Positions 24,213 through 36,476 are shown, counted from the stretch's first letter. The stretch is 64,000 nucleotides of DNA from Methylosarcina fibrata AML-C10 (GCF_000372865.1 NZ_KB889965.1:517902-581901), one strand, 5' to 3'. The notes: generated from the letters alone by a model not told the origin. A program made the numbers and translations.

Positions 24213-25934
24213 TTAGTTTCCCAATGCGTGATTAACGAAATCGGGCATGTCGAAAGCTTTCCCTTTGCCGATAGCCGGGTGCCATGCCGGTGCCTGCCGC
24301 AACAGCGAATGGCCGTCGTTCAACATTAAGCCGACAAAGGTTTCGACGACGATACGGCTGCCTACAGGCCCGAGTTGCACCGGCGTATCCTCTTCTCCGC
24401 CGTTCTGCCGCCAATCGTGCTGCGCCTCGGCGAGTACGTAGTACCATAATGGCGCTTTGCCGGAGAAACTCGGATCAATGGTATTTAAGGCATTCAGCTT
24501 ATCGTACTCATCGGCGTTAGTAGCCTTGCCGACTTTCAGCAGATCATCGGCAAGAGGCTCGAGCCCCATTGCCCGTGCAACGTCCTGGCCGGAAGGCAAC
24601 CCCATAGCCATGCCGCGCAAGAGATTACGTAGCGCCAAATTCGGTATCTCCTTCTTATCTAAAGGCTTGGGCTGAAGCTGCGCGATATCGGTCAACGGCG
24701 ATGCCGGCGTAGACATATCGATTTTGGAAAACTCCGCCAAAAAGGCCAGCGGATTCACCAACGAGGTATCGATTTTATATGCCGGTTGCGTGCGGTCTTT
24801 GCCGATACGGCTGTCTTTATCGCCGCTGAGATCAAAGAATAAGTTCCAATCAATGCCCCATTCCTTCGGAAATTCGTCAAACCCGTTGAGGCCACGCTGC
24901 TTGAGGCCGGCGAAGATGAACTGCCGGCCATCAATACCGCGTTCGCGTTCATTAGGACGAGTATCGTCGGGATGATTACCTCCGCTTAGTTTGGTATTCA
25001 AGCGGTAGATCGGGCGCACCATGGAATGCCCGAAACGGTAAGCGGCGACCGAGAATTCGACCGGCATGAAGGCTTCATTTTTAGGCTTGTAGAATAATAG
25101 CCTCGGCTTATCTTCGAAAATGGACCGGCCACTGGCCAAATGCGGCAGCACGCTTTCGATAATGTCTCGGCGGGCGACTTTGTAGAGAAAATCGTACAGT
25201 ACGACGTATTGATAATGCCAACGGACTTGCCGCTGAATTTCACTGAAACTGTAATGCTTGTTGTCGTCGGCTAACCGGTTGTGAAACTGTAAGAAAATTG
25301 AGTGCAACTGGCTGACGATCACGTTTTCATCGTTGCGCTTGTCGCCGATCAAAGCTCGGTTATGAACCGTGCCGTCAGGATCAACCCAACGATGACGCGG
25401 TAAATCATGCGCGATAACAGCGCCGTTCGGCCCTTCCAATAATTCGCGCCCAAGTTGAAACTTACGGCCGCGGCCGTCGTACATGTACGGTTGATCATCC
25501 GGACCTCTTCCGTAGAGGCAATCGAGGTCAAAACGCGGCGTACGAAAATCCACCAGTGCGTCGACATCGTTGCGTTTCTGCAGACTACTGGCCGGATCGA
25601 AAGTGAGATCGTGGTCGATGAATTGACCGAGATAGGTATAGCCTGAATCGATGCCACTGTTTTCTTCGTCGTCGTGCAAGCGGCTGGCTTGCCCCTCTTC
25701 ACTCGGCGCGAAGGGAAGGTTTGTTCCTTCCGCCAATTCTGGATCTGAAGCCATTCCTCCTTCGTCGTGTCCGTTGCCTGCAAGTTGTCGCAGCGCCTCT
25801 TCCGGCCATTCGGCTGCCGGCAAATTACGGAATATGCGCCCGAAGCGGCCTTCGGCTTGGGAAGAGCGGCGATCGAAATCGGCACCGCGAACTGCGCCGT
25901 GCGATGAGTTTTTCTTACCTGGTAATGTCTTCAT
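24213..25934 (-). CDS. Animal-type haem peroxidase (peroxidase-cyclooxygenase superfamily)
   Basis: 573 residues from the ATG at 25934 (MKTLPGKKNSSHGAVRG). GQFIDHDLTFDPASSLQ carries the distal His with the adjoining Asp of the family, and VAAYRFGHSMVRPIYRLN carries the proximal haem His in the FGHSxVR context. Members use H2O2 to oxidise halides or organic compounds. No signal peptide is evident, so a cytoplasmic or non-classically exported location is likely. By eye the gene is less GC-rich than its neighbours, a hint of acquisition. A longer frame to 26099 lacks a better start and is not preferred. Confidence 0.88.
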   Translation of the reverse strand: MKTLPGKKNSSHGAVRGADFDRRSSQAEGRFGRIFRNLPAAEWPEEALRQLAGNGHDEGGMASDPELAEGTNLPFAPSEEGQASRLHDDEENSGIDSGYTYLGQFIDHDLTFDPASSLQKRNDVDALVDFRTPRFDLDCLYGRGPDDQPYMYDGRGRKFQLGRELLEGPNGAVIAHDLPRHRWVDPDGTVHNRALIGDKRNDENVIVSQLHSIFLQFHNRLADDNKHYSFSEIQRQVRWHYQYVVLYDFLYKVARRDIIESVLPHLASGRSIFEDKPRLLFYKPKNEAFMPVEFSVAAYRFGHSMVRPIYRLNTKLSGGNHPDDTRPNERERGIDGRQFIFAGLKQRGLNGFDEFPKEWGIDWNLFFDLSGDKDSRIGKDRTQPAYKIDTSLVNPLAFLAEFSKIDMSTPASPLTDIAQLQPKPLDKKEIPNLALRNLLRGMAMGLPSGQDVARAMGLEPLADDLLKVGKATNADEYDKLNALNTIDPSFSGKAPLWYYVLAEAQHDWRQNGGEEDTPVQLGPVGSRIVVETFVGLMLNDGHSLLRQAPAWHPAIGKGKAFDMPDFVNHALGN

Positions 25935-26389
25935 AAAAGTCCCCTGTTCTAAGTTAAGAAATAATTCCGCCTGTATTCGCCGCCGGTAGATAAGGCGGAA
26001 TTTGGGCGGAAAACCCGATACAGCCATTTCGCGGCATGAGATGACGACTTGCTTCGATTCAAGGAATAACGAAAACCGCCATTCAGGCTCAGGGGCCAAC
26101 GGTCGTCAGGATGCGTTCACCGTTGGCATGAAATTCAAAGCCAGACTTTCCATTTTCAAATGAAAAAAACAGCGGCTCGGCTTAACCGAAGTTAAGCGGT
26201 AAATTCACTGAAAACTGCCTTATAAATCAGGGTTTAAGAATGGGAATGATTTCAGCTTATAGGCGTAAGATATGAATGTCAATAGGTGATAAATATTATG
26301 CAGACTAAAACTTGCCTATGAAGAGTCTGAAGGTATAATTGTCGGGCTTTAAATCCTCCCGCAAACTCATAATCTACAGGAAAAAAATC
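25935..26389. promoter_or_regulatory. Divergent regulatory region between peroxidase and the dab-like operon, with a palindrome
   Basis: About 455 bases between two divergent units. GCTTAAC (26180-26186) and GTTAAGC (26191-26197) form a perfect 7-bp inverted repeat with CGAA between, suited either to a regulator dimer or a short RNA hairpin. The 3' part (26220-26340) is A/T-rich and likely holds the operon promoter. Neither promoter was placed with confidence. Confidence 0.45.
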
Positions 26390-27868
26390 ATGGGGATTCT
26401 TAGCGTGTTGCTATGGACTCCGGCTGTTGGAGCTCTGCTCTTGGCTAGTATTCCCTATCAGAAGGTCTTCATTATCCGCAGCATCGCCCATCTGACGGCC
26501 GCTTTTGTTTTTCTGCTGAGCTGCTGGCTGCTGGCCGGCTTCGACCGGCAAAATTCTTCGTTGCAATTCATCGAATATTTTCCGCTCAATCCCGATCTCG
26601 GCAGCGCTTATGCGCTCGGCGTCGACGGTCTCTCGATGCCCATGCTGGTCCTGGCCACATTGCTGACCTCGATCGCTTTGCTGGCGTCGTTGTCCATTTC
26701 CTCGAGCGTTAAAGGCTATCATATCTGCGTTCTCCTGCTGGAATTCGGCATGTTGGGCGTTTTTCTGGCGCAGGACTGGGCTTTATTCTATATATTCTGG
26801 GAAGTCACTTTGATTCCCCTGTTTTTTTTGATCGGCCGATGGGGCGGCAAACGGCGCCATACGGCCAGTCTTAATTTCGTGCTGTATACGATGGGCGGTT
26901 CGATTTTCATGCTGATCAGTCTCCTGGCCATCAGCCGGTACGATCTCGAGCACAGCGGCTCTCTGATGTCTTCGATGAATCAGGTGGCCCAGGGCATGCC
27001 CCGCTATGAACAGGTGCTGGTGCTGTTGGGATTTCTTATCGGTTTCGGCGTCAAAATGCCGGTTTTCCCGTTACACGGCTGGCTGCCGCTGGCTCACGTG
27101 GAAGCGCCCAGTGCCATCAGTATCCTGCTCTCCGGCATATTGCTGAAAATGGGCGCCTACGGCCTGCTCAGAGCGATCGTGATGCTTCCGGAGGCGGCTG
27201 AAATTTTACAATGGCCGCTGGCGTTGCTGGCTCTGTTCAGCATGCTGTACGGCGGCTTGCTGGCCTGGCGGCAAAGCGATCTGAAAGCGATGGTCGCCTA
27301 TTCGTCCCTGAGCCACATGGGCGTCGTGCTGCTGGGAATGGCGGCCTTGAACGAATCGGGCATCACCGGCGCCGTGCTGCAGATGACCGCGCACGGCCTG
27401 GTGGCCGCTTCGCTGTTTCTGCTGGTCGGACTGCTTTACGAGCGCACGCTGACCCGCAATGTCCAGGACTACAGTTCACTGGTGCAGGTCATGCCCCGGT
27501 TTGCCCTGTTCACGACCCTGACCCTGCTGGCGGCGCTGGGGCTGCCGGGCACCGTCGGGTTTGTCGCCGAACTCCATGCGCTGATCGGCGGATTTCAAGA
27601 ATGGGGCGGGGTGATGGCTTTGTTCAGCCTGAGTGTTCTGATCGGCGCGGCTTATTGCATGCGGACCATCGGCCTGTTGTTCACCGGTCCGGTAAAGCCC
27701 CAGATGCGGCAGATTGAAGATCTGAGGCCGCTGGAACTGTTGCCTGCGGGAATGCTGGCCGGGGGGCTGGTCGTGTTCGGCGTGGCCCCGGCGCCGCTGA
27801 TTTATCTGTCTTCAGCCACCATTGCCCAGATCGATCATACGATCCAGCTTCGCCTGGTGCAGGAATAA
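26390..27868 (+). CDS. NuoM/MrpD-like proton-translocating subunit, first gene of the dab-like operon
   Basis: 492 residues from ATG 26390, preceded by CAGGA; a TTG at 26339 would only add a polar extension. Fourteen or so helices and all four key ionisable residues of NuoM are present: Glu138 (FWEVTLIP), Lys222 (GFGVKMPVFPLHGWLP), Lys253 (LLKMGAYG) and Glu394 (GFVAELHAL). It should therefore be able to move protons. No other complex I gene is near; instead it is two bases upstream of dabA and co-transcribed with three more antiporter-like genes. Confidence 0.9.
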   Translation: MGILSVLLWTPAVGALLLASIPYQKVFIIRSIAHLTAAFVFLLSCWLLAGFDRQNSSLQFIEYFPLNPDLGSAYALGVDGLSMPMLVLATLLTSIALLASLSISSSVKGYHICVLLLEFGMLGVFLAQDWALFYIFWEVTLIPLFFLIGRWGGKRRHTASLNFVLYTMGGSIFMLISLLAISRYDLEHSGSLMSSMNQVAQGMPRYEQVLVLLGFLIGFGVKMPVFPLHGWLPLAHVEAPSAISILLSGILLKMGAYGLLRAIVMLPEAAEILQWPLALLALFSMLYGGLLAWRQSDLKAMVAYSSLSHMGVVLLGMAALNESGITGAVLQMTAHGLVAASLFLLVGLLYERTLTRNVQDYSSLVQVMPRFALFTTLTLLAALGLPGTVGFVAELHALIGGFQEWGGVMALFSLSVLIGAAYCMRTIGLLFTGPVKPQMRQIEDLRPLELLPAGMLAGGLVVFGVAPAPLIYLSSATIAQIDHTIQLRLVQE

Positions 27869-27870
27869 GA

Positions 27871-30800
27871 ATGCGGCGATCGTTATCAGCAAACTCGAAC
27901 GAGATGGCCGCCCTACGCGACCTCGTCAAAGAGGCATTGCAGCATCTTGATCACGTTCTGCCGGGGCAGGGGCCGATTCTTGATTTCGTCCACCACAATA
28001 CGCTGCACGGCTATCAGCATCTGCCTTTCGAAGAGGCTCTGGCGGCCTGCGAAGCGCTGACGGGCGTGTCGGGTTATCTGCCCGAAGTAAAATTCCGGGA
28101 ATTTTACCGGAACGGACGCATTAGCGAAGAGGACTTGTCCGCCGCGCTGTCGCACGAGCTTCAAACGGCCGCCGAACAAGTCCTGCTCTATCTGCCCGGC
28201 CGCAATATCGTCCGGAAGGAAATTTACCGGATTGCGTTGTTGTACGATCTGCAGGCGATTACCGTCAGTCAGTTGCACTGGAACGCGCAGGAGCTGAACG
28301 CGCTGGATGCGCCGCAGGCGGATCTGCCCGAACCGATCAGGCAACAATACCGGAAGGGCGAAAGCGGCACGCCGCCTGCCGGCATCCGGCCGCTCTGGCG
28401 CAGCCTCCTGGAACAGCTCGAACTCGACGGAGATATGCCTCATCCCGAGAACATGCTCGATCTCTCGACCGAGCAGGCCGAGGCCTGGCTTAACCAGGTT
28501 CTTCAGGATACCGGGGAAAACTCGAAGGCTTCGATTCATCTGGCCACCCGCCAACATATTCTGTCCTCCCTGAACGAGCTGCTGGATCGGATCGGCGAAA
28601 GCATTTCCTTGCGCGGTTTTATTGCCGCCTTGAGCGGAAGGGATATTTTTGACTTCGTGCGGCCTCAACTGATCCGCATTTGCGCCGCTTCGCTGGACGA
28701 GGGCGTAGCCGCATGGCGCCGGCCCGTGCGCTACGAGTCCGGCCAGAAACCGAGCTGGCGGGAAGTTTTGCGCTACGACGCCAATCCATTTCTGCACGAA
28801 TTGCCGGAATGGCCGCAGATTTTGCAGCAATTGCCCGCCGATGCGGTGGATGCGATCGTGATTCATTTGTCTCAATTGGATATTCCGCAACAGAAATGGC
28901 GGGGCTATCTGCAGCGATTGGCGCTCGAATTGCCCGGCTGGTCGGGAATGATCAACTGGCGCCAGCAGCATCCCGAGTACCGCCCGGCTCACGGCTCCCC
29001 GCTGACTCTGGCCGACTATCTGGCGATTCGTCTGACGCTGGACCGGATCTGGCTGACTCAAGTATGCCGGGATCTCTGGAAGATCGAAGCCAGGCTCAGT
29101 TCGCTTGAAGCTTATTTTCGCAAGAATCTGTCGGAATTCAGTGTGCGCCGGCAATTGTTTCAGGGCGGATTGCCGGAGTATTTGACGCAACAGGCGCAGT
29201 CGCTGATCGAGCGCGCCGGCTCCGAGCGGCACGAGCGCAAGGACTGGCAGCAGCTTTCCGACCGGATTCGAACCTGGCAATTCAGTCCGATGGCCGACTC
29301 GGCCGCCGCCTGTTCGTTGAATAATCAGGCCTGGCGGCTTTTTCGCCTGTCCCAGCACCTGGGGCTGGGACAGGCGGATATCGACTCGCTGACTCGTGAC
29401 GATTGGTTGAATTTGTTGAAAGAACTGGACGGCTTTACGGCAGCCCGCCGCAGTAAAATCTGGCTGGAAGCGTATGAAAGAAATTACCGGGATCATCTGT
29501 TCCAGGCCATCCGCGCCAATCAAGGCCGGGGACGCTGGTCCAAACGCGAGCTGCGTCCGGAAGCGCAGATCGCGTTCTGCATGGACGAGCGGGAAGAAAG
29601 CTTTCGGCGTCATCTCGAAGAGCTCGCCCCCGCCGTCGAAACCCTGGGCGCGGCCGGTTTTTTCGGTATCGCCATGAACTATCGGGGCCTGGACGACGCG
29701 CACGATACGCCCTTGTGCCCGGTAGCGATCCGGCCGGCGCATCAGGTGCGCGAGAAAGTAAAACGCGGCGAAGAAAGCACGTTGAAAGCTCATCTGAGAG
29801 GGCATCGATTTTTTCGATGGTTTAATGGTTTGATGCACCGGAATCTGCGCCGGGAGCTCATCGTGGCCTATCCGAAGCTGCTTGTGCTCGCCCCTGTTGT
29901 CTTGATCGGACTCCTGGCGGACACGATCATGCCTCACTACTGGCACCGGCTGAACGGGTGGTGGCGGCGTTTCATCGAACCGCCGGTGCCCACCGAACTG
30001 CATTTCCAGGCCGACGCTGCCCTGTCGGGCTTTACCGACGGCGAACAGGCCGACCGGGTCGAAGGTTTGCTCAGAACGATGGGCCTTACCGATGGGTTTG
30101 CGCCGTTCGTCTGCCTGATCGCCCACGGCTCGACGAGCCTGAACAATCCCCATGAGGCCGCCCACGATTGCGGCGCCTGCGGCGGGCGCCGCGGCGGACC
30201 GAACGCCCGTGCGTTCGCGGCCATGGCCAATCGCCGAGAGGTGAGGGCGCTGCTCTCCCGACGCGGTCTTCTTCTGCCGGAAGACTGCTGGTTCATAGGC
30301 GCTCAACATGATACCTGCGACGATTCGATGATCTGGTACGATCTGGAAGCGATGCCGCCCGGCCTCGGCTCTTCCTTTAAAAAAATCCTGGACGCAGTAG
30401 GCAAAGCGCAGCAGCTTTCGGCTCATGAACGCTGCCGGCGCTTGCTGCCGGCCGAAGGCTCCCTGTCGCCGAAAGCGGCTTACGGGCATGTGCGGCAACG
30501 GGCGGCCGATACCAGCCAGGTTCGCCCCGAATACGGACATGCCACCAATGCCGCGGCTTTCATCGGACGCCGGTCGGCGACTCAGGGCTTGTTTCTGGAC
30601 CGGCGCGTGTTTCTGATTTCATACGACGCCGCGCAGGATCCCGAGGGCGCCATTCTTGAAACTATTTTGCTGACCGCAGGCCCGGTCGGCGCGGGAATCA
30701 ACCTGGAATATTATTTTTCCACCGTCGACAATGAACGCTTCGGCTGCGGCACCAAAGTGCCTCACAACGTCACCGGTCTGTTCGGGGTCATGGAAGGAGC

Positions 30801-31140
30801 GGCGAGCGACTTGCGCACGGGCCTACCGTGGCAGATGGTGGAGATTCACGAAGCGATGCGTTTGCAGGTGATCGTGGAGGCCCGGGTCTCGGTGCTCGAG
30901 GCTCTGTATCATCGCCAACCCATTTTGCGCGAACTGGTCGGTGGAAGCTGGGTCCATTTGAGCGTGGTCGATCCGGACACCGGCGATATTTGCGTGTTTA
31001 ATCCGGGGACCGGCTTCGTGTCGTGGCAGGCTTCATCGAAAAAGCCTCCGCGGTTCGCAAGTTCTCCGGATTATTACCGGCAGCAAACCGGGCCGTTGCC
31101 GCCGGCGTTGATCCTGCGACCGGATTCTTTAGGAGCCTGA
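27871..31140 (+). CDS. dabA: DabA-type (DUF2309/UPF0753) inorganic carbon accumulation protein
   Basis: 1089 residues, a soluble or peripheral protein. The beta-carbonic-anhydrase-like zinc site of DabA is intact: Cys570 and Asp572 in IAFCMDEREES, His752 in AHGSTSLNN, and Cys767 in AAHDCGACGGRRGG. The 15-residue His-Cys spacing is the same as in Halothiobacillus DabA (His524/Cys539). DabA with a NuoL-like DabB is thought to couple CO2 hydration to ion flow. This protein is longer than compact DabA proteins, with about 200 extra residues before the first zinc ligand. An internal ATG at 27904 is an alternative start. Confidence 0.9.
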   Translation: MRRSLSANSNEMAALRDLVKEALQHLDHVLPGQGPILDFVHHNTLHGYQHLPFEEALAACEALTGVSGYLPEVKFREFYRNGRISEEDLSAALSHELQTAAEQVLLYLPGRNIVRKEIYRIALLYDLQAITVSQLHWNAQELNALDAPQADLPEPIRQQYRKGESGTPPAGIRPLWRSLLEQLELDGDMPHPENMLDLSTEQAEAWLNQVLQDTGENSKASIHLATRQHILSSLNELLDRIGESISLRGFIAALSGRDIFDFVRPQLIRICAASLDEGVAAWRRPVRYESGQKPSWREVLRYDANPFLHELPEWPQILQQLPADAVDAIVIHLSQLDIPQQKWRGYLQRLALELPGWSGMINWRQQHPEYRPAHGSPLTLADYLAIRLTLDRIWLTQVCRDLWKIEARLSSLEAYFRKNLSEFSVRRQLFQGGLPEYLTQQAQSLIERAGSERHERKDWQQLSDRIRTWQFSPMADSAAACSLNNQAWRLFRLSQHLGLGQADIDSLTRDDWLNLLKELDGFTAARRSKIWLEAYERNYRDHLFQAIRANQGRGRWSKRELRPEAQIAFCMDEREESFRRHLEELAPAVETLGAAGFFGIAMNYRGLDDAHDTPLCPVAIRPAHQVREKVKRGEESTLKAHLRGHRFFRWFNGLMHRNLRRELIVAYPKLLVLAPVVLIGLLADTIMPHYWHRLNGWWRRFIEPPVPTELHFQADAALSGFTDGEQADRVEGLLRTMGLTDGFAPFVCLIAHGSTSLNNPHEAAHDCGACGGRRGGPNARAFAAMANRREVRALLSRRGLLLPEDCWFIGAQHDTCDDSMIWYDLEAMPPGLGSSFKKILDAVGKAQQLSAHERCRRLLPAEGSLSPKAAYGHVRQRAADTSQVRPEYGHATNAAAFIGRRSATQGLFLDRRVFLISYDAAQDPEGAILETILLTAGPVGAGINLEYYFSTVDNERFGCGTKVPHNVTGLFGVMEGAASDLRTGLPWQMVEIHEAMRLQVIVEARVSVLEALYHRQPILRELVGGSWVHLSVVDPDTGDICVFNPGTGFVSWQASSKKPPRFASSPDYYRQQTGPLPPALILRPDSLGA

Positions 31141-31198
31141 CATGCCCGACGCCGCGGCTTCCTTGTCTGCGTTTTTTTGATATCTGCCGGTTGATCTT

Positions 31199-32761
31199 AT
31201 GGATGCATTGGTTCTATTGATTCCTCTGTTGCCGTTTCTGGCGTCGATTGCCGTCGGCCTGGGCATTTTATCCGGAGTTCTCGACGGCGAAACGAAGGAA
31301 AGCTGGACGGCGGCCATCGTGCTTTGGGGCATGTCCATGTCGTGCCTTTTATCGATGACCTTGCTGGGCGCCGATTTCATCGGCGTCAACAAAGGGGCCG
31401 TGCATTTAGGGTTCTGGTTTGCCAGCGACCGTCTCAAAATTCCGGTGAATTTCATTACCACCGGTCTGAACGTCAGGATGGCGGCGTTGTTCTCGCTGCT
31501 GATTGCTATAGTGTGCCGTTTTTCGGTGAACTACATGCATCGGGAAACCGGATTTCACCGATTTTTTTTCACGCTCGGACTTTTCTGTTCGGCTATGCTG
31601 CTCTTGGTGTTGTCCGGAAATACGGTCGGCACCTTTGCCGGCTGGGAAATCGCCGGATTGTGTTCTTATTTCCTGATCGGCTACGCTTACGACCGTCCTG
31701 TGGCAACGCATAACGCCGCCCGCGTCTTCGTGACCAACCGCGTCGGCGACACCGCCTTCATCCTCGGCATCGGTCTTGGCTATATCTGGGCCGAGAGCGT
31801 GAACTGGCTCAAGCTGAACGCGCTGGCCGAGCAATTGACTTTCGGCGAGGCGACGGGCATCGCGCTTTGTTTTACCGTGGCGGCCCTGGTCAAGTCGGCG
31901 CAATTGCCGTTTTCTTCCTGGCTGGCGCGGGCAATGGAAGGGCCGACGCCGTCCAGTGCGGTTTTTTACGGGGCGGTCATGGTTCATGCCGGCGTTTTTC
32001 TGATCCTTCTAACGCATCCGATTATTGAAAAAACCGCTTTCGTGATGATTCTTCTGTCCGCCGCGGGCATACTCACCGCCTGTTACGGTTTTTATGCCGG
32101 TTTAACCCAAACCGACATCAAAAGTTCGCTGACCTTCGCCGTCACGGCTCAACTCGGCTTGATGTTTTTCGAATGCGGCATGGGCTGGTGGCAACTGGCC
32201 GAATGGCATCTTGGCACACACGCGGTGGTCCGCTGCGCTCAGTTTCTGACGGCGCCTTCGCTGTTGCACAATCTCAAGGGGGTTCCCGTTGCTCCTTTCC
32301 ACTCGCGTCTTTCCGAACAGCCCTGGGCGTATACGGCGTCTTTGCATCGTTTCTGGCTGGAGCCCATCATCGATTGGGCCCTGGTTAAACCGGTCGGCCG
32401 GTTGGGTCAGGATCTGGCTTATTTCGACGATTTCATCGTCGATAAAAGCCTCGGTTCCCCGGCATCGGCGATCAACGCCATTTCTTCCCTGGCTCTGATG
32501 GAAGAGCAGAATCTCGGAGCCAGACTGGATAACGATTCCGACGAATTTGCCCAGGGCAGCGGCTTTGCCGGCAAGCTGACCGCCTGGTTCGCTGCTCTCA
32601 GCCACTGGTTCGAGGAGCGTTTCGTCTTGCGCGGCATAGGCAAGGACACGCTTCATTACGGCCGTCGCCTGGGCTATGCGGCCAACCGGTTCGAACAGTT
32701 GATTCTAAGGCCCCGTTATCTGGTGCTGTTCGTGTTTATTACCTTTCTCGTAGCTTTTTGA
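31199..32761 (+). CDS. NuoL/DabB-like membrane subunit, shortened
   Basis: 520 residues. About ten helices match the first part of NuoL, with Glu150 (GWEIAGLCSYFLIG), Lys232 (ALVKSAQLPFSSWLARAMEG) and Lys308 (TQTDIKSSLTF). The later HAxxK helix reads HAVVRCAQFL, with Arg345 in place of the usual Lys. After it the chain skips to a hydrophilic segment resembling the NuoL C-terminal region (YFDDFIVD, then FEERFVLRGIGKDTLHYG) and one last helix. Thus the distal helices are missing, a shape also reported for DabB-type proteins. It is 58 bases after dabA. Confidence 0.85.
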   Translation: MDALVLLIPLLPFLASIAVGLGILSGVLDGETKESWTAAIVLWGMSMSCLLSMTLLGADFIGVNKGAVHLGFWFASDRLKIPVNFITTGLNVRMAALFSLLIAIVCRFSVNYMHRETGFHRFFFTLGLFCSAMLLLVLSGNTVGTFAGWEIAGLCSYFLIGYAYDRPVATHNAARVFVTNRVGDTAFILGIGLGYIWAESVNWLKLNALAEQLTFGEATGIALCFTVAALVKSAQLPFSSWLARAMEGPTPSSAVFYGAVMVHAGVFLILLTHPIIEKTAFVMILLSAAGILTACYGFYAGLTQTDIKSSLTFAVTAQLGLMFFECGMGWWQLAEWHLGTHAVVRCAQFLTAPSLLHNLKGVPVAPFHSRLSEQPWAYTASLHRFWLEPIIDWALVKPVGRLGQDLAYFDDFIVDKSLGSPASAINAISSLALMEEQNLGARLDNDSDEFAQGSGFAGKLTAWFAALSHWFEERFVLRGIGKDTLHYGRRLGYAANRFEQLILRPRYLVLFVFITFLVAF

Positions 32762-34341
32762 TGCCTTTGATGGATAATTATGTAAGCTTCTGGCACGAAT
32801 CGGCGGGGTTTCCGTTACTGACGGCGCTGACGCTGATACCGTTGCTCACCGTGATTGCCGTGCTGATCTCGTCCTCCGGCAGTCGGGCGCGGCTTTGGGC
32901 GTTCGCCGGAGCGCTGTTGAACGTCCTGCTGGCCCTGTATCTGCTGATAGTGTTCGATCCGGACGCCAATGGGATTCAATTGTTTGAACGCGTGGAATTT
33001 GCCGGGATGACTTACTGCGTGGGCGTGGACGGGGCCAATATCCTGTTCATTCCTCTTGCGGCGATTCTGGCCTTGATGGCTTTGGTGTACACCTTGATTA
33101 CCCGCCATGCGTCAGACCGTCTCTTCATCGCCTGCCTGCTCGGTTATGAAGGCATTATGATCGGCGCTTTCGCCGCGTTGAACATCATGCAATTCTGGTT
33201 GTGGAGCGTACTGGAATTGTTGCCGGTCAGCGTTCTGACGCTGCACGCCGGCACCGGGCAGAACAAGCGTTGGGTCCTCGACCGGTTTTTACAGTACTGG
33301 ATCAGCGGATTATTGATGACGTTGACCGGTTTTCTGCTGCTTGCCTTCGGTCTGATCGATTCCGAACATCCGTTGACGTTCGACTGGCTGACGCTGAAAC
33401 AGAACAATGCCTATCTGCACGACGAAATTCTGATCTTCATTCTCCTGTTCTACGGCTTTGCCATTCGCATGCCCTTGTTTCCGTTTCACGGCTGGCTTCC
33501 TTTGCTCGCGGAACAAGGCACGGTCGCCAGCGCCGCGATTTTCCTGGTGGGGCTGAAACTGGGCATCTATGCGGTGATCCGTTTCATTTTGCCGATCGTG
33601 CCGGGCGTCGCCGAAGTCTGGAGCGATTTTGTCCTGACTCTGGCGGTCATCAGTATTTTTTACGGAGCCTTGCTGGCCTTGATGCAAATCAATATCCGGC
33701 GTTTGCTGGCCTTTGCCGTCATCAGCCATACCGGCATGCTGGTCATCGGCTTGTTCTGTTTTAACGATTACGGTCTGGAGGGGAGCATTCTGCTGTCCGC
33801 GGCGTACGGTTTGGCGACCTCGGGCATGTTGTTCAGCGTCGGCCTCATCTACGAACGAACCCGCACGGCCTATCTTCCCCGGCTCGGGGGATTGTTCGAC
33901 ACGAACGCCACCATCGCTCTGCTGTTTCTGGTTTCCGTATTGAGCACCATGGTCATGCCGGGAACGCCGGGCTTCGACGCGGCGCATTTGCTTGTCGAGG
34001 GCACCATTGAAGAGCGCGGCTGGCTCCTCGCCGTGTTTATTCTGATGGGCAACGTGCTGGCGGCCGCTTTTCTGCTGTGGGCTTTTCAACGCATTTTTCT
34101 GGCCACGCCCAAACGTTCCGTTCAGCCTGTCAGTTCGCTCCGTCATCCGGTCAGAAAAGAGCGCATCATTGCGGTGACCGTCTGTTCCCTGCTGATCGGC
34201 ACGGGTTTTTACACGACACCGTGGCTGAAATTCATTGACCAGGAGGTGGCCGCCATGGGCGAAGGCTATCCCGTGCACGGCAGTTCGAAAGCCGTGGACG
34301 TGAAGCCGAGCGGCACGGACGAAGAAGAGGAACAGCCATGA
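32761..34341 (+). CDS. NuoM-like membrane subunit with altered proton-path residues
   Basis: 526 residues from ATG 32761, overlapping the previous stop. The fold is NuoM-like (PLFPFHGWLPLLAEQGTVAS) and Lys266 in TM8 is kept. The other three key positions differ: the TM5 Glu position is Val150, with Glu152 two residues on (WSVLELLP); TM7 Lys is Arg236 (AIRMPLFPFHGWLP); and TM12 Glu is Ala408 (GTPGFDAAHLL). The chain is intact and coupled to neighbours on both sides, so it is kept by selection, perhaps as a structural or regulatory subunit. Confidence 0.88.
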   Translation: MPLMDNYVSFWHESAGFPLLTALTLIPLLTVIAVLISSSGSRARLWAFAGALLNVLLALYLLIVFDPDANGIQLFERVEFAGMTYCVGVDGANILFIPLAAILALMALVYTLITRHASDRLFIACLLGYEGIMIGAFAALNIMQFWLWSVLELLPVSVLTLHAGTGQNKRWVLDRFLQYWISGLLMTLTGFLLLAFGLIDSEHPLTFDWLTLKQNNAYLHDEILIFILLFYGFAIRMPLFPFHGWLPLLAEQGTVASAAIFLVGLKLGIYAVIRFILPIVPGVAEVWSDFVLTLAVISIFYGALLALMQINIRRLLAFAVISHTGMLVIGLFCFNDYGLEGSILLSAAYGLATSGMLFSVGLIYERTRTAYLPRLGGLFDTNATIALLFLVSVLSTMVMPGTPGFDAAHLLVEGTIEERGWLLAVFILMGNVLAAAFLLWAFQRIFLATPKRSVQPVSSLRHPVRKERIIAVTVCSLLIGTGFYTTPWLKFIDQEVAAMGEGYPVHGSSKAVDVKPSGTDEEEEQP

Positions 34342-35894
34342 GTGCCACTTTCCCCTGGTTAAGCCTGATTATCGGGCTGCCTTTGGCAGGCGCGCTGCTT
34401 TGCGCATGCATACGCCATCTTGCCGCCGCTCAATGGTGCGCGGTATCGATTACCGTTCTGGAACTCGCGGCTACGTTGAAAGTGCTATCCCTCTTTCATG
34501 TCGAAGACGGCGATCAATTCCAGTTGGTGGAGAAACACGCCTATCTTCCGGGGCTGAACATCGACTATTTAATAGGCATCGACGGCATTTCCGTCCAGTT
34601 TCTACCGCTGTCCGCGCTGTTGACCATGGGCGCCGTCGTTGCCGGCTGGAATACGGCAAATCGGCTGCCGCACTTTCATTTAGCCTTGCTGCTGGCTTTG
34701 GAAGGCGTCACGATGGGCGTCTTCACCGCGCTGGATACGGTGTTGTTTTTTTCCTTCTGGGAACTGACGCTGCCTCTTATTTTCTTTTTGATCAGTTTAT
34801 GGGGCATAGGGCCGGAACGGCGGGGCGCGGCCATGAAATACACCATGTTCATGCTCTTCGGCAGTGTTCCGCTGCTGTTCGGGATCGTCATCCTGGCCGT
34901 CAATCATGCCACTGTAGTGGGCGGCCGCATCCCGCAGGATCTGGCTTTCAGTATGCCGGTATTGCTGGAAACGCCTTTGCAGGAGCATTGGCAGACCCTG
35001 GTGTTTGTCTTGTTGTTGACCGGTTTTGCGGTAAAAGCTCCGCTGGTTCCTCTGCACACCTGGCTGCCGACCGTGGCCATGGAAGGGCCGGCGCCTGTGA
35101 CCGCACTTCTGGTCGGCCTGAAACTCGGGGCTTACGGCATCATCCGGTTGGCCATGCCGCTGGCGCCTTTCGCCGCGGTTCAATACAGTTGGCTGCTGGG
35201 CATCCTGGGGGCGATCACCTTGATCTACGGCGCCTTGATTGCCCTGCAGCAAACCAATTTACGCCGCTTGCTCGCCTATGCCGGCATCAGCCATGTCGGG
35301 CTGATCATCATCGGCATCGCCTCGCTCAACATCCATGGGATACAAGGGACGCTGCTGCAACTTTTTAATTTCGTTTTGTCGGCCGCTTCTCTGATGCTGA
35401 TCGCCGGCTTTATTCAGCATCGCCTCGGCAGCACGGAAGCGATTCATTTGGGGGGGCTGGCCAAGGTTATGCCGCGCCTGACCGCTTTTTATTTCCTGTT
35501 CATGCTGGCCAGCATCGGAATACCCGGCACGAACGGTTTCCCGGCCGAGTTGTTACTGATCGTCGGAGCCTTGACCGCCCATCCCAGCCTGGGCATTACG
35601 GCTCTGGCCGGAGCTGTGTTGGGAAGCGCCTACACGTTGAACTATAGCCGGCGGGCATTTTTCGGCCCGGTCACTCATCCGGCGGTCGGCCAGATACAGG
35701 ACTTAAGACCACGCGAGCTGGCCGTTTTATCTATTCCGGCCGTGTTGGTCCTGATTTTCGGTTTTTTTCCGGACGGCCTGGTCAAAACCGGGGCTGCCGC
35801 AACGGAAGCCTGGCTTGACCGCTTACTGGAGCAACCGATTAAAGAAAGCCGCGAATCGGACAGGGGCTGCCATTGGCCGGCAGTTCACGGATAG
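34338..35894 (+). CDS. NuoM-like proton-translocating subunit, last gene of the dab-like operon
   Basis: 518 residues, overlapping the previous gene by four bases (ATGA). About fourteen helices; the four pumping residues are kept: Glu142 (FWELTLPLIF), Lys233 (GFAVKAPLVPLHTWLP), Lys262 (VGLKLGAYG) and Glu404 (GFPAELLLIVG). The C-terminus ends in a polar tail (ESRESDRGCHWPAVHG). Only 21 bases separate its stop from that of the convergent MarR gene, with no visible terminator between. Confidence 0.9.
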   Translation: MSATFPWLSLIIGLPLAGALLCACIRHLAAAQWCAVSITVLELAATLKVLSLFHVEDGDQFQLVEKHAYLPGLNIDYLIGIDGISVQFLPLSALLTMGAVVAGWNTANRLPHFHLALLLALEGVTMGVFTALDTVLFFSFWELTLPLIFFLISLWGIGPERRGAAMKYTMFMLFGSVPLLFGIVILAVNHATVVGGRIPQDLAFSMPVLLETPLQEHWQTLVFVLLLTGFAVKAPLVPLHTWLPTVAMEGPAPVTALLVGLKLGAYGIIRLAMPLAPFAAVQYSWLLGILGAITLIYGALIALQQTNLRRLLAYAGISHVGLIIIGIASLNIHGIQGTLLQLFNFVLSAASLMLIAGFIQHRLGSTEAIHLGGLAKVMPRLTAFYFLFMLASIGIPGTNGFPAELLLIVGALTAHPSLGITALAGAVLGSAYTLNYSRRAFFGPVTHPAVGQIQDLRPRELAVLSIPAVLVLIFGFFPDGLVKTGAAATEAWLDRLLEQPIKESRESDRGCHWPAVHG

Positions 35895-35915: not shown

Positions 35916-36476
35916 TCATGCCACGGAATGTTCCTGACAGATTTTTTCACTATCGTTCTGACTGAGCGGTTCTTTGGTCAAATCGCAGACGAACCCGCTT
36001 CCAGTCGGGGTAAAATGGCGGCAGCTTTTGCAAAGACCGAAGGACTGCGACTGATGCGCTTTTTGCAGAGCCAGTAACGCATTGGCGAAAATGATCTCGT
36101 TTTGATCGATGTGATAGTTTTTCAAGAGCAGCGTCGCTCGTTTGAACAGCTCCGTGGAGCGGGCTTTGGTCAGGATGGCGGCGCCCTCGGGCAGCAGGTG
36201 AAGATGGACCATGCGGCGATCGTTGCTGTCGGATTTCTTTTCGAGAAATCCTTTTTTTTCCAGCAGCAATAACGTTTGCGATACGGTTCCCCGGGTCATG
36301 CCCAGATAATTGGCGAGCGCCGCCGGCGTATCGCTGTAACGATTGCAGCGGGATAAATAGTCCAGCACTTGAAAATGAACCGGTTGCAGTCCCAGCTCGG
36401 TGCATTTTTTACGTTCTTCCGAACGAATCAGCGCGGCCATCCGTTCTATCAATTCAAATATCTCAAGTTTTTCCAT
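35916..36476 (-). CDS. MarR-family regulator with C-terminal cysteine cluster
   Basis: 186 residues. Residues about 1-140 are a MarR winged helix (ALANYLGMTRGTVSQTLLLL recognition region; SDSNDRRMVHLHLLPEG wing). An extra 35-residue tail carries CKSCRHF, then a Cys in GFVCDLTKEPLS and another in EKICQEH, giving a CxxCxH...C...C pattern fit to bind zinc or an iron-sulfur cluster. It faces the dab-like operon tail-to-tail and is divergent from the DUF2024 gene. A metal- or redox-sensing regulator is inferred; its targets are unknown. Confidence 0.88.
   Translation of the reverse strand: MEKLEIFELIERMAALIRSEERKKCTELGLQPVHFQVLDYLSRCNRYSDTPAALANYLGMTRGTVSQTLLLLEKKGFLEKKSDSNDRRMVHLHLLPEGAAILTKARSTELFKRATLLLKNYHIDQNEIIFANALLALQKAHQSQSFGLCKSCRHFTPTGSGFVCDLTKEPLSQNDSEKICQEHSVA

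Follow-up and report, generated by a model that had tools for sequence, protein, structure and literature searches.

A conserved five-gene operon of Methylosarcina fibrata joins DabA to four antiporter-like subunits and may encode an enlarged DAB system

Vectorial hydration of CO2 takes place at antiporter-like membrane subunits in cyanobacterial NDH-1MS, where the subunits concerned are NdhF3 and NdhD3; this machinery is redox driven, includes a full NDH-1 module and uses a CO2-hydrating subunit unrelated to DabA. The DAB2 system of Halothiobacillus neapolitanus, composed of DabA2 and DabB2, is considered to hydrate CO2 in one direction by coupling to protons flowing inward, and the zinc site of DabA2 is known from structure (PDB 9rd0, PMC13144422). 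In that structure an Asp holds the zinc-bound water and is not itself a zinc ligand; Leu658 stands where ordinary beta-carbonic anhydrases have their transition-state residue, and Glu444 of the membrane ‘finger’ is essential (PMC13144422). Larger gene groupings are also on record: the portion of a 2017 COGNAT paper devoted to ‘clade C’ describes ybcC (COG3002) operons with NuoL, NuoM and SulP, and suggests that how many ions are moved depends on how many membrane genes are present (PMC5700660). The initial annotation of the locus studied here, which took DAB systems to pair DabA with a single NuoL-type DabB, therefore overstated the case.

We analyzed a 64,000-nucleotide stretch of the Methylosarcina fibrata AML-C10 genome (GCF_000372865.1 NZ_KB889965.1:517902-581901), hereafter the window, in which five ORFs on the + strand fill positions 26390-35894 (Table 1). 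These encode a NuoM-like protein (M1), DabA, a short NuoL-like protein (Ls), an altered NuoM-like protein (Ma) and a second NuoM-like protein (M2). Successive genes are separated by gaps of 2 and 58 bases and then overlap by 4 and 4 bases, the Ls/Ma overlap being 1 base with ATG 32761, the second codon, as the start of Ma; the close packing on one strand that had been annotated was thus confirmed. Pfam searches placed PF00361 on M1, Ls, Ma and M2, and PF10070 (DabA) on the second ORF at an E value of 1.5e-246, above the cut-off. M1 and M2 scored far over the cut-off of the NCBIfam NuoM subfamily and Ma barely over it, while Ls fell under the NuoL cut-off. An alternative M1 start is possible at the in-frame TTG 26339; ATG 26390 has the better leader. 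Promoter-like sites were no more frequent than chance (2 found, 3.9 expected), so that position alone favors the one listed in Table 1. In the window the block lies between an animal-haem-peroxidase-like gene (24213-26099, − strand) and a MarR-type regulator (35916-36476, − strand).

Table 1 Features of the five-gene block, in window coordinates.
Feature	Position	Strand	Remarks
Promoter-like site TTGCCT-16-TATAAT	26312..26339	+	about 50 bases 5′ of first ATG
M1, NuoM-like, 492 aa	26390..27868	+	PF00361, NuoM residues, own clade
DabA, 1089 aa, long form, zinc-binding, predicted beta-carbonic-anhydrase fold	27871..31140	+	
C570-x-D572-x-R574, first zinc Cys and Asp-Arg dyad	29578..29592	+	correspond to DabA2 C351, D353, R355
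DabA residues 635-686, predicted helical hairpin	29773..29928	+	matches DabA2 membrane ‘finger’
H752 and C767, zinc His and second zinc Cys	30124..30171	+	correspond to DabA2 H524, C539
Ls, DabB ortholog, NuoL-like, 520 aa	31199..32761	+	without TM12 part of PF00361; long C-terminal tail
Ma, altered NuoM-like, 527 aa from TTG 32758 (526 aa from ATG 32761)	32758..34341	+	
M2, NuoM-like, 518 aa	34338..35894	+	TM5 Glu, TM7 Lys, TM8 Lys, TM12 Glu present

Homologous antiporter-like subunits within one operon also characterize the complex I membrane arm and Mrp antiporters, and we considered both identities. Complex I was rejected, in agreement with the initial annotation: no NuoB-I, quinone or NADH module is found among the five genes, the tested neighbors are unrelated, and the host’s own complex I antiporter-like genes sit elsewhere in the genome, at 3.488-3.493 Mb. 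An Mrp antiporter was likewise set aside, the five genes filling the block and leaving no room for MrpB, C, E, F and G ORFs. The NDH-1 module of NDH-1MS is absent as well.

Across public genomes, the order M1-DabA-Ls-Ma-M2 recurred in 30 of 31 Rhodocyclaceae/Gammaproteobacteria loci, the exception, L050, being a short contig in which genes one to four are seen, and in 21 of 24 loci from the window’s own order. It was also present in several other gammaproteobacterial families and in 9 of the 17 loci of a class-wide group, which was assembled from a class-wide Ma search plus deliberately fetched split loci. With L205, which is on the same contig as L040, taken as its duplicate, this gave 59 further contiguous copies of the block in the same order, an arrangement far beyond chance in which dabA and the membrane genes are co-conserved. 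The window’s flanking genes, the haem-peroxidase-like and MarR-type genes included, are not common to the other loci, save for scattered matches elsewhere in the window; because flanks differ between loci, the block is taken to travel as a unit. A plasmid search returned distant DabAs only.

Genomes in which the block is broken up are informative on its cohesion. All five genes were found, dispersed, in four of them: in two (G022 and G026) M1-DabA lies on one contig and Ls-Ma-M2 on another, and in the other two (G128 and G258) DabA adjoins an Ls-Ma fusion, with M1 and M2 elsewhere. This fusion is one 1045-aa protein in both genomes (L202 and L203, respectively) and provides good evidence for contact between Ls and Ma. 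Elsewhere, M1-Ls-Ma-M2 is separate from DabA (G134), as is Ma-M2 (G388). The parts are therefore kept where the block is broken, which is good evidence that the five genes form one functional unit.

A smaller relative of the block, a three-gene DabA-L-M operon, occurs in Planctomycetes, Verrucomicrobia, Acidobacteria and Myxococcota. Like the block, it combines a long DabA with a DabB-type L and an M protein showing the same TM5 Glu loss and TM7 Lys-to-Arg change as Ma; unlike the block, it has no M1 or M2 and its L has a shorter C-terminal tail. The clade C operons (PMC5700660) likewise resemble the block in having dabA upstream of a nuoL homologue, an added NuoM and a nearby SulP. They differ in that the soluble protein’s function was unknown in 2017, and the clade C portion of that paper describes neither the M1-DabA-Ls-Ma-M2 unit nor the altered Ma.

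We examined how far the added subunits M1 and M2 retain the residues of a proton channel. M1 has all of the NuoM proton-path residues (E138, K222, H229, K253, H309, H335 and E394), and nearly all M1 copies keep the checked channel residues. The same residues are kept in nearly all M2 copies, except that Phe occupies the NuoM His348 position. M1 and M2 thus apparently supply two complete NuoM-type proton paths, and the corresponding claim of the initial annotation holds for M1 in full and for M2 apart from this Phe. A tree built from 73 antiporter-like proteins resolved each of M1, M2, Ma and Ls as a single clade with support of at least 99; the M1 clade (100/100) was placed beside the host’s own complex I NuoM (93/85).

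The position of M1 in this tree bears on a reading in which DabA and Ls, perhaps with Ma, hydrate CO2 while M1 and M2 constitute a separate, co-expressed proton/cation channel or antiporter that removes the hydration proton or holds cytoplasmic pH. Such a division would also suit the operons of Planctomycetes and Verrucomicrobia, whose restriction to DabA-L-M marks M1 and M2 as additions, and the split genomes, some of which have M1 and M2 separated from the core. However, M1 nearly always lies directly upstream of dabA (2 bases away in the window), it stays with DabA in G022 and G026 while M2 stays with Ls-Ma, and both accompany the core in every broken-up genome where they were sought. The block also contains no MrpB/C/E/F/G-like small subunits. 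On balance we regard a separate M1/M2 device as unlikely, while deserving serious consideration.

Turning to the soluble subunit, the only PDB relative of the window DabA was DabA2 (E = 3.6e-80), with which it shares the zinc site, the Asp-Arg dyad and, by prediction, a membrane hairpin and a beta-carbonic-anhydrase fold. C570, D572, R574, H752 and C767 were invariant in 30 aligned DabAs and conserved in at least 52 of 53 sequences of the five-gene set. Four residues had been annotated as zinc ligands; Cys570, His752 and Cys767 stand as such, whereas Asp572 would, by the DAB2 structure, hold the zinc-bound water. In an AlphaFold model of DabA (mean pLDDT 78), residues 635-686 form a helical hairpin. 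VIA-align gave beta-carbonic anhydrases as all 18 of the best structural matches to this model, with CsoSCA first at Z = 10.5 over 319 residues, while a Foldseek search against the PDB gave no E value below 1e-3, the best match again being CsoSCA at 1.6e-3. DAB2 entries were not among the listed rows of either search, and their absence there says nothing about likeness. DabA is accordingly predicted from the model to have a beta-carbonic-anhydrase-like fold.

The window protein also departs from DabA2 in several respects. It is longer (1089 against 870 aa), and the position of DabA2 Leu658 is occupied by His890, a His in 52 of 53 five-gene DabAs. The essential finger residue Glu444 aligns with Leu671, so that coupling through the finger cannot be identical to that of DAB2. 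Most relatives have Ala or a hydrophobic residue here and some have Asp, the residues seen being Ala, Leu, Val, Ser and Asp, and 12 of 15 short-form DabAs of the window’s order have Gln, which indicates that Glu444 is not general to the wider family. We tried two simple rules and abandoned both. A rule that multi-subunit DABs do without the finger acid fails on the window relatives with Asp, and a rule that a long DabA denotes a multi-subunit system fails on another gammaproteobacterial family of long DabAs, for which 19 of the 20 loci retrieved show a single NuoL-like partner. Short-form systems can coexist with the block: in G027 (L125, 1379-15960) the five-gene block is divergent from, and back to back with, a short-form DAB of two genes, and several other relatives have both in their genomes.

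Conservation of the zinc site is relevant to two further readings. In the first, the block would be a bicarbonate or Na+/bicarbonate transporter on the MpsAB model and not a CO2-hydrating enzyme; the homologous MpsAB of Staphylococcus aureus has been proposed to be a Na+/HCO3- symporter, as cited in the DAB2 paper (PMC13144422), and SulP-type anion transporters are frequent neighbors of the block. Against this stand the invariance of the zinc site and Asp-Arg dyad and a predicted fold like that of beta-carbonic anhydrases. DAB2, moreover, takes CO2 and needs no sodium (PMC13144422), and with a separate SulP next to the block there would be no need for another bicarbonate importer. We rate a transporter as improbable. 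In the second, the block would be decaying or repurposed, its antiporter array no longer using DabA catalysis. One genome of the same family, G024, does have a 708-aa long DabA frame from which the zinc site is gone and in which the hairpin region is kept (L144; long DabA L225; Ls-Ma-M2 L218), and it retains M1, Ls, Ma and M2, a combination that fits early decay or an array role without hydration. As the window and almost every other relative retain the zinc residues, and as each of the five genes is conserved with its reading frame open, we give decay or repurposing very little weight for the block at large.

Ls and Ma each have a distinctive composition. PF00361 covers only profile positions 2-226 of 294 on Ls, so the description ‘short NuoL-like’ was right, and in the 73-protein tree Ls groups with the DabB proteins of two-gene DABs, making it by sequence a DabB ortholog. 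It keeps E150, R181, D184, K232, K308, H337 and H341 of the cytoplasmic half channel along with the DabB-type residues Y257, H263, E247 and R345, common to most two-gene DabBs. Like DabB2, it is NuoL-like and lacks the normal TM12 region; it differs at Glu150, which corresponds to NuoL Glu144 and to Ile151 of DabB2. The tail beyond R345 has a median of 157 residues, as compared to 105 in the three-gene operons. An AlphaFold2 model of Ls (mean pLDDT 82, with low confidence in the C-terminal part) matches NuoL along some 400 residues, within a span of NuoL 1-562, which points to Ls being a NuoL without part of its C-terminal bundle; on this model it may retain the start of the lateral helix. As for Ma, all 45 of 45 sequences are without the TM5 Glu and the TM12 Glu, the latter position being Ala in 41, and all 45 have Arg in place of the TM7 Lys; the TM8 Lys is kept. 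The alterations that gave it the label ‘altered NuoM-like’ therefore hold across the family. Loss of the TM5 Glu with Arg in TM7 also marks the third gene of the planctomycete operons (Arg in 32 of 35), to which Ma is sister with support of 90/72, not strong.

Taken together, we favor the reading that the block is a DAB of five subunits, acting as a vectorial carbonic anhydrase powered by protonmotive force, and assign it a probability of roughly 0.55. Here DabA would be a zinc enzyme that hydrates CO2 to bicarbonate in the cytoplasm, with its membrane hairpin docked on Ls, its DabB. Ls would be coupled side by side to Ma, which keeps the fold and has lost the channel residues and so is probably a spacer or force-transmitting link. 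DabA, Ls and Ma would make up the core, as in the three-gene operons, with M1 and M2 as two added proton channels. Protons moving inward via M1, M2 and perhaps Ls would open and drive the DabA site, at a cost of more protons per CO2 than in two-subunit DABs, and this greater expenditure would allow a higher bicarbonate level to be sustained. We infer formation of a complex by the five subunits; the direction of coupling, the stoichiometry and the physiological role are proposed in the same spirit. PMF-driven hydration by DAB2 provides the precedent, making an enlarged DAB the simplest extension; DAB2 has two subunits with one membrane protein, as compared to four PF00361 proteins in the block. 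An enlarged DAB had also been suggested in the initial annotation and is well supported by the co-conservation, the intact zinc site, the orthology of Ls to DabB and the two apparently complete NuoM-type channels. Counting against it are the replacement of Glu444 by Leu671, the zinc-less DabA of G024 and the presence of other carbonic-anhydrase genes in the genome. The structural models used here are of single chains, with mean pLDDT of 78-82.

Energy could in principle flow the other way, with CO2 hydration, favored by the CO2 from methane oxidation, driving ion export through the array as an energy-conserving pump. Near neutral pH, hydrating CO2 releases no more than a few kJ/mol, insufficient for the export of a single proton against a normal protonmotive force. 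The related suggestion of the initial annotation, a separate proton-translocating machine with DabA as its soluble arm, suffers from weak energetics and found no support of its own. More channels would mean more ions exported, and an ion-export pump was proposed for multi-subunit ybcC operons in the clade C portion of the 2017 COGNAT paper (PMC5700660); DAB2 activity, however, requires a protonmotive force and does not make one (PMC13144422). We consider such a pump highly improbable.

Returning to an enlarged DAB, the genes found beside the block in other organisms support a role in CO2/bicarbonate supply. For 24 of the 31 named Beta/Gamma loci, SulP-like genes occur in the flanking sequence retrieved, as they do for many planctomycete and methanotroph-order loci, and several blocks of the window’s order adjoin beta-carbonic-anhydrase genes or SulP-carbonic-anhydrase fusions (examples checked by Pfam). 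No SulP or beta-carbonic-anhydrase neighbor was seen beside the block in the window. The M. fibrata genome contains pmoA, as expected of the annotated methanotroph, a single copy of DabA, nine PF00361 matches and three PF00484 (carbonic anhydrase) matches; neither a RuBisCO large subunit nor an alpha-carbonic anhydrase was found in it. Bicarbonate from the block may feed the bicarbonate-using carboxylases of a RuBisCO-less methanotroph. The annotated role in anaplerosis is plausible in the lack of RuBisCO, yet was overstated, since the three PF00484 matches mean that the block is not the host’s only route to bicarbonate. We also dropped the idea of the DAB as sole carbonic anhydrase more generally, PF00484 being present in 60 of 61 genomes searched, the host’s included.

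Other groupings of DabA or SulP with antiporter-like genes came to light alongside the block. In G044 (L129, 7802-16278) a distant DabA, 27% identical and with an intact zinc site, is followed directly by a full-length NuoL-like gene and two NuoM-like genes in which the checked NuoM residues are complete, suggesting that DabA may have joined complex-I-like modules more than once. In G085 (L278), SulP and DabA lie about 2.4 kb upstream of MrpD-like and NuoL-like genes, possibly another DabA-antiporter grouping. The host genome itself has two more NuoL/Mrp-like genes (G000:C1:859918-864432; L007 and L008) with a SulP-like frame just upstream, and their relatives in G024 adjoin a two-gene DAB (L154). 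Directly after one planctomycete three-gene DAB lies a SulP transporter fused to a PII-like domain (L099, 15941-17941).

Although multi-subunit dabA operons have been known since 2017, we found no account of the M1-DabA-Ls-Ma-M2 form, which is apparently undescribed; neither the five-gene DAB form nor a disabled Ma was described in the part of the literature that was searchable. A term search within the searchable text of a 2024 carbonic-anhydrase study of Methylococcus capsulatus returned no mention of DAB (PMC11423575).

More tentatively, and at somewhat less than even odds, the block may be a counterpart of the complex I membrane arm that works without redox chemistry, with DabA hydration mechanically coupled to a row of antiporter-like subunits, within a DAB series that has one, two or four membrane subunits and differing proton-to-CO2 ratios. 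Driving chemistry that involves no electron transfer would bear on long-range coupling in complex I. The same zinc enzyme accompanied by one, two or four antiporter-like subunits would allow proton/CO2 coupling in DABs to be compared directly, in a conserved family that has two added subunits with apparently full proton paths and one subunit consistently disabled. For the organisms themselves, the block may represent an overlooked carbon-supply system in methanotrophs and Rhodocyclaceae.
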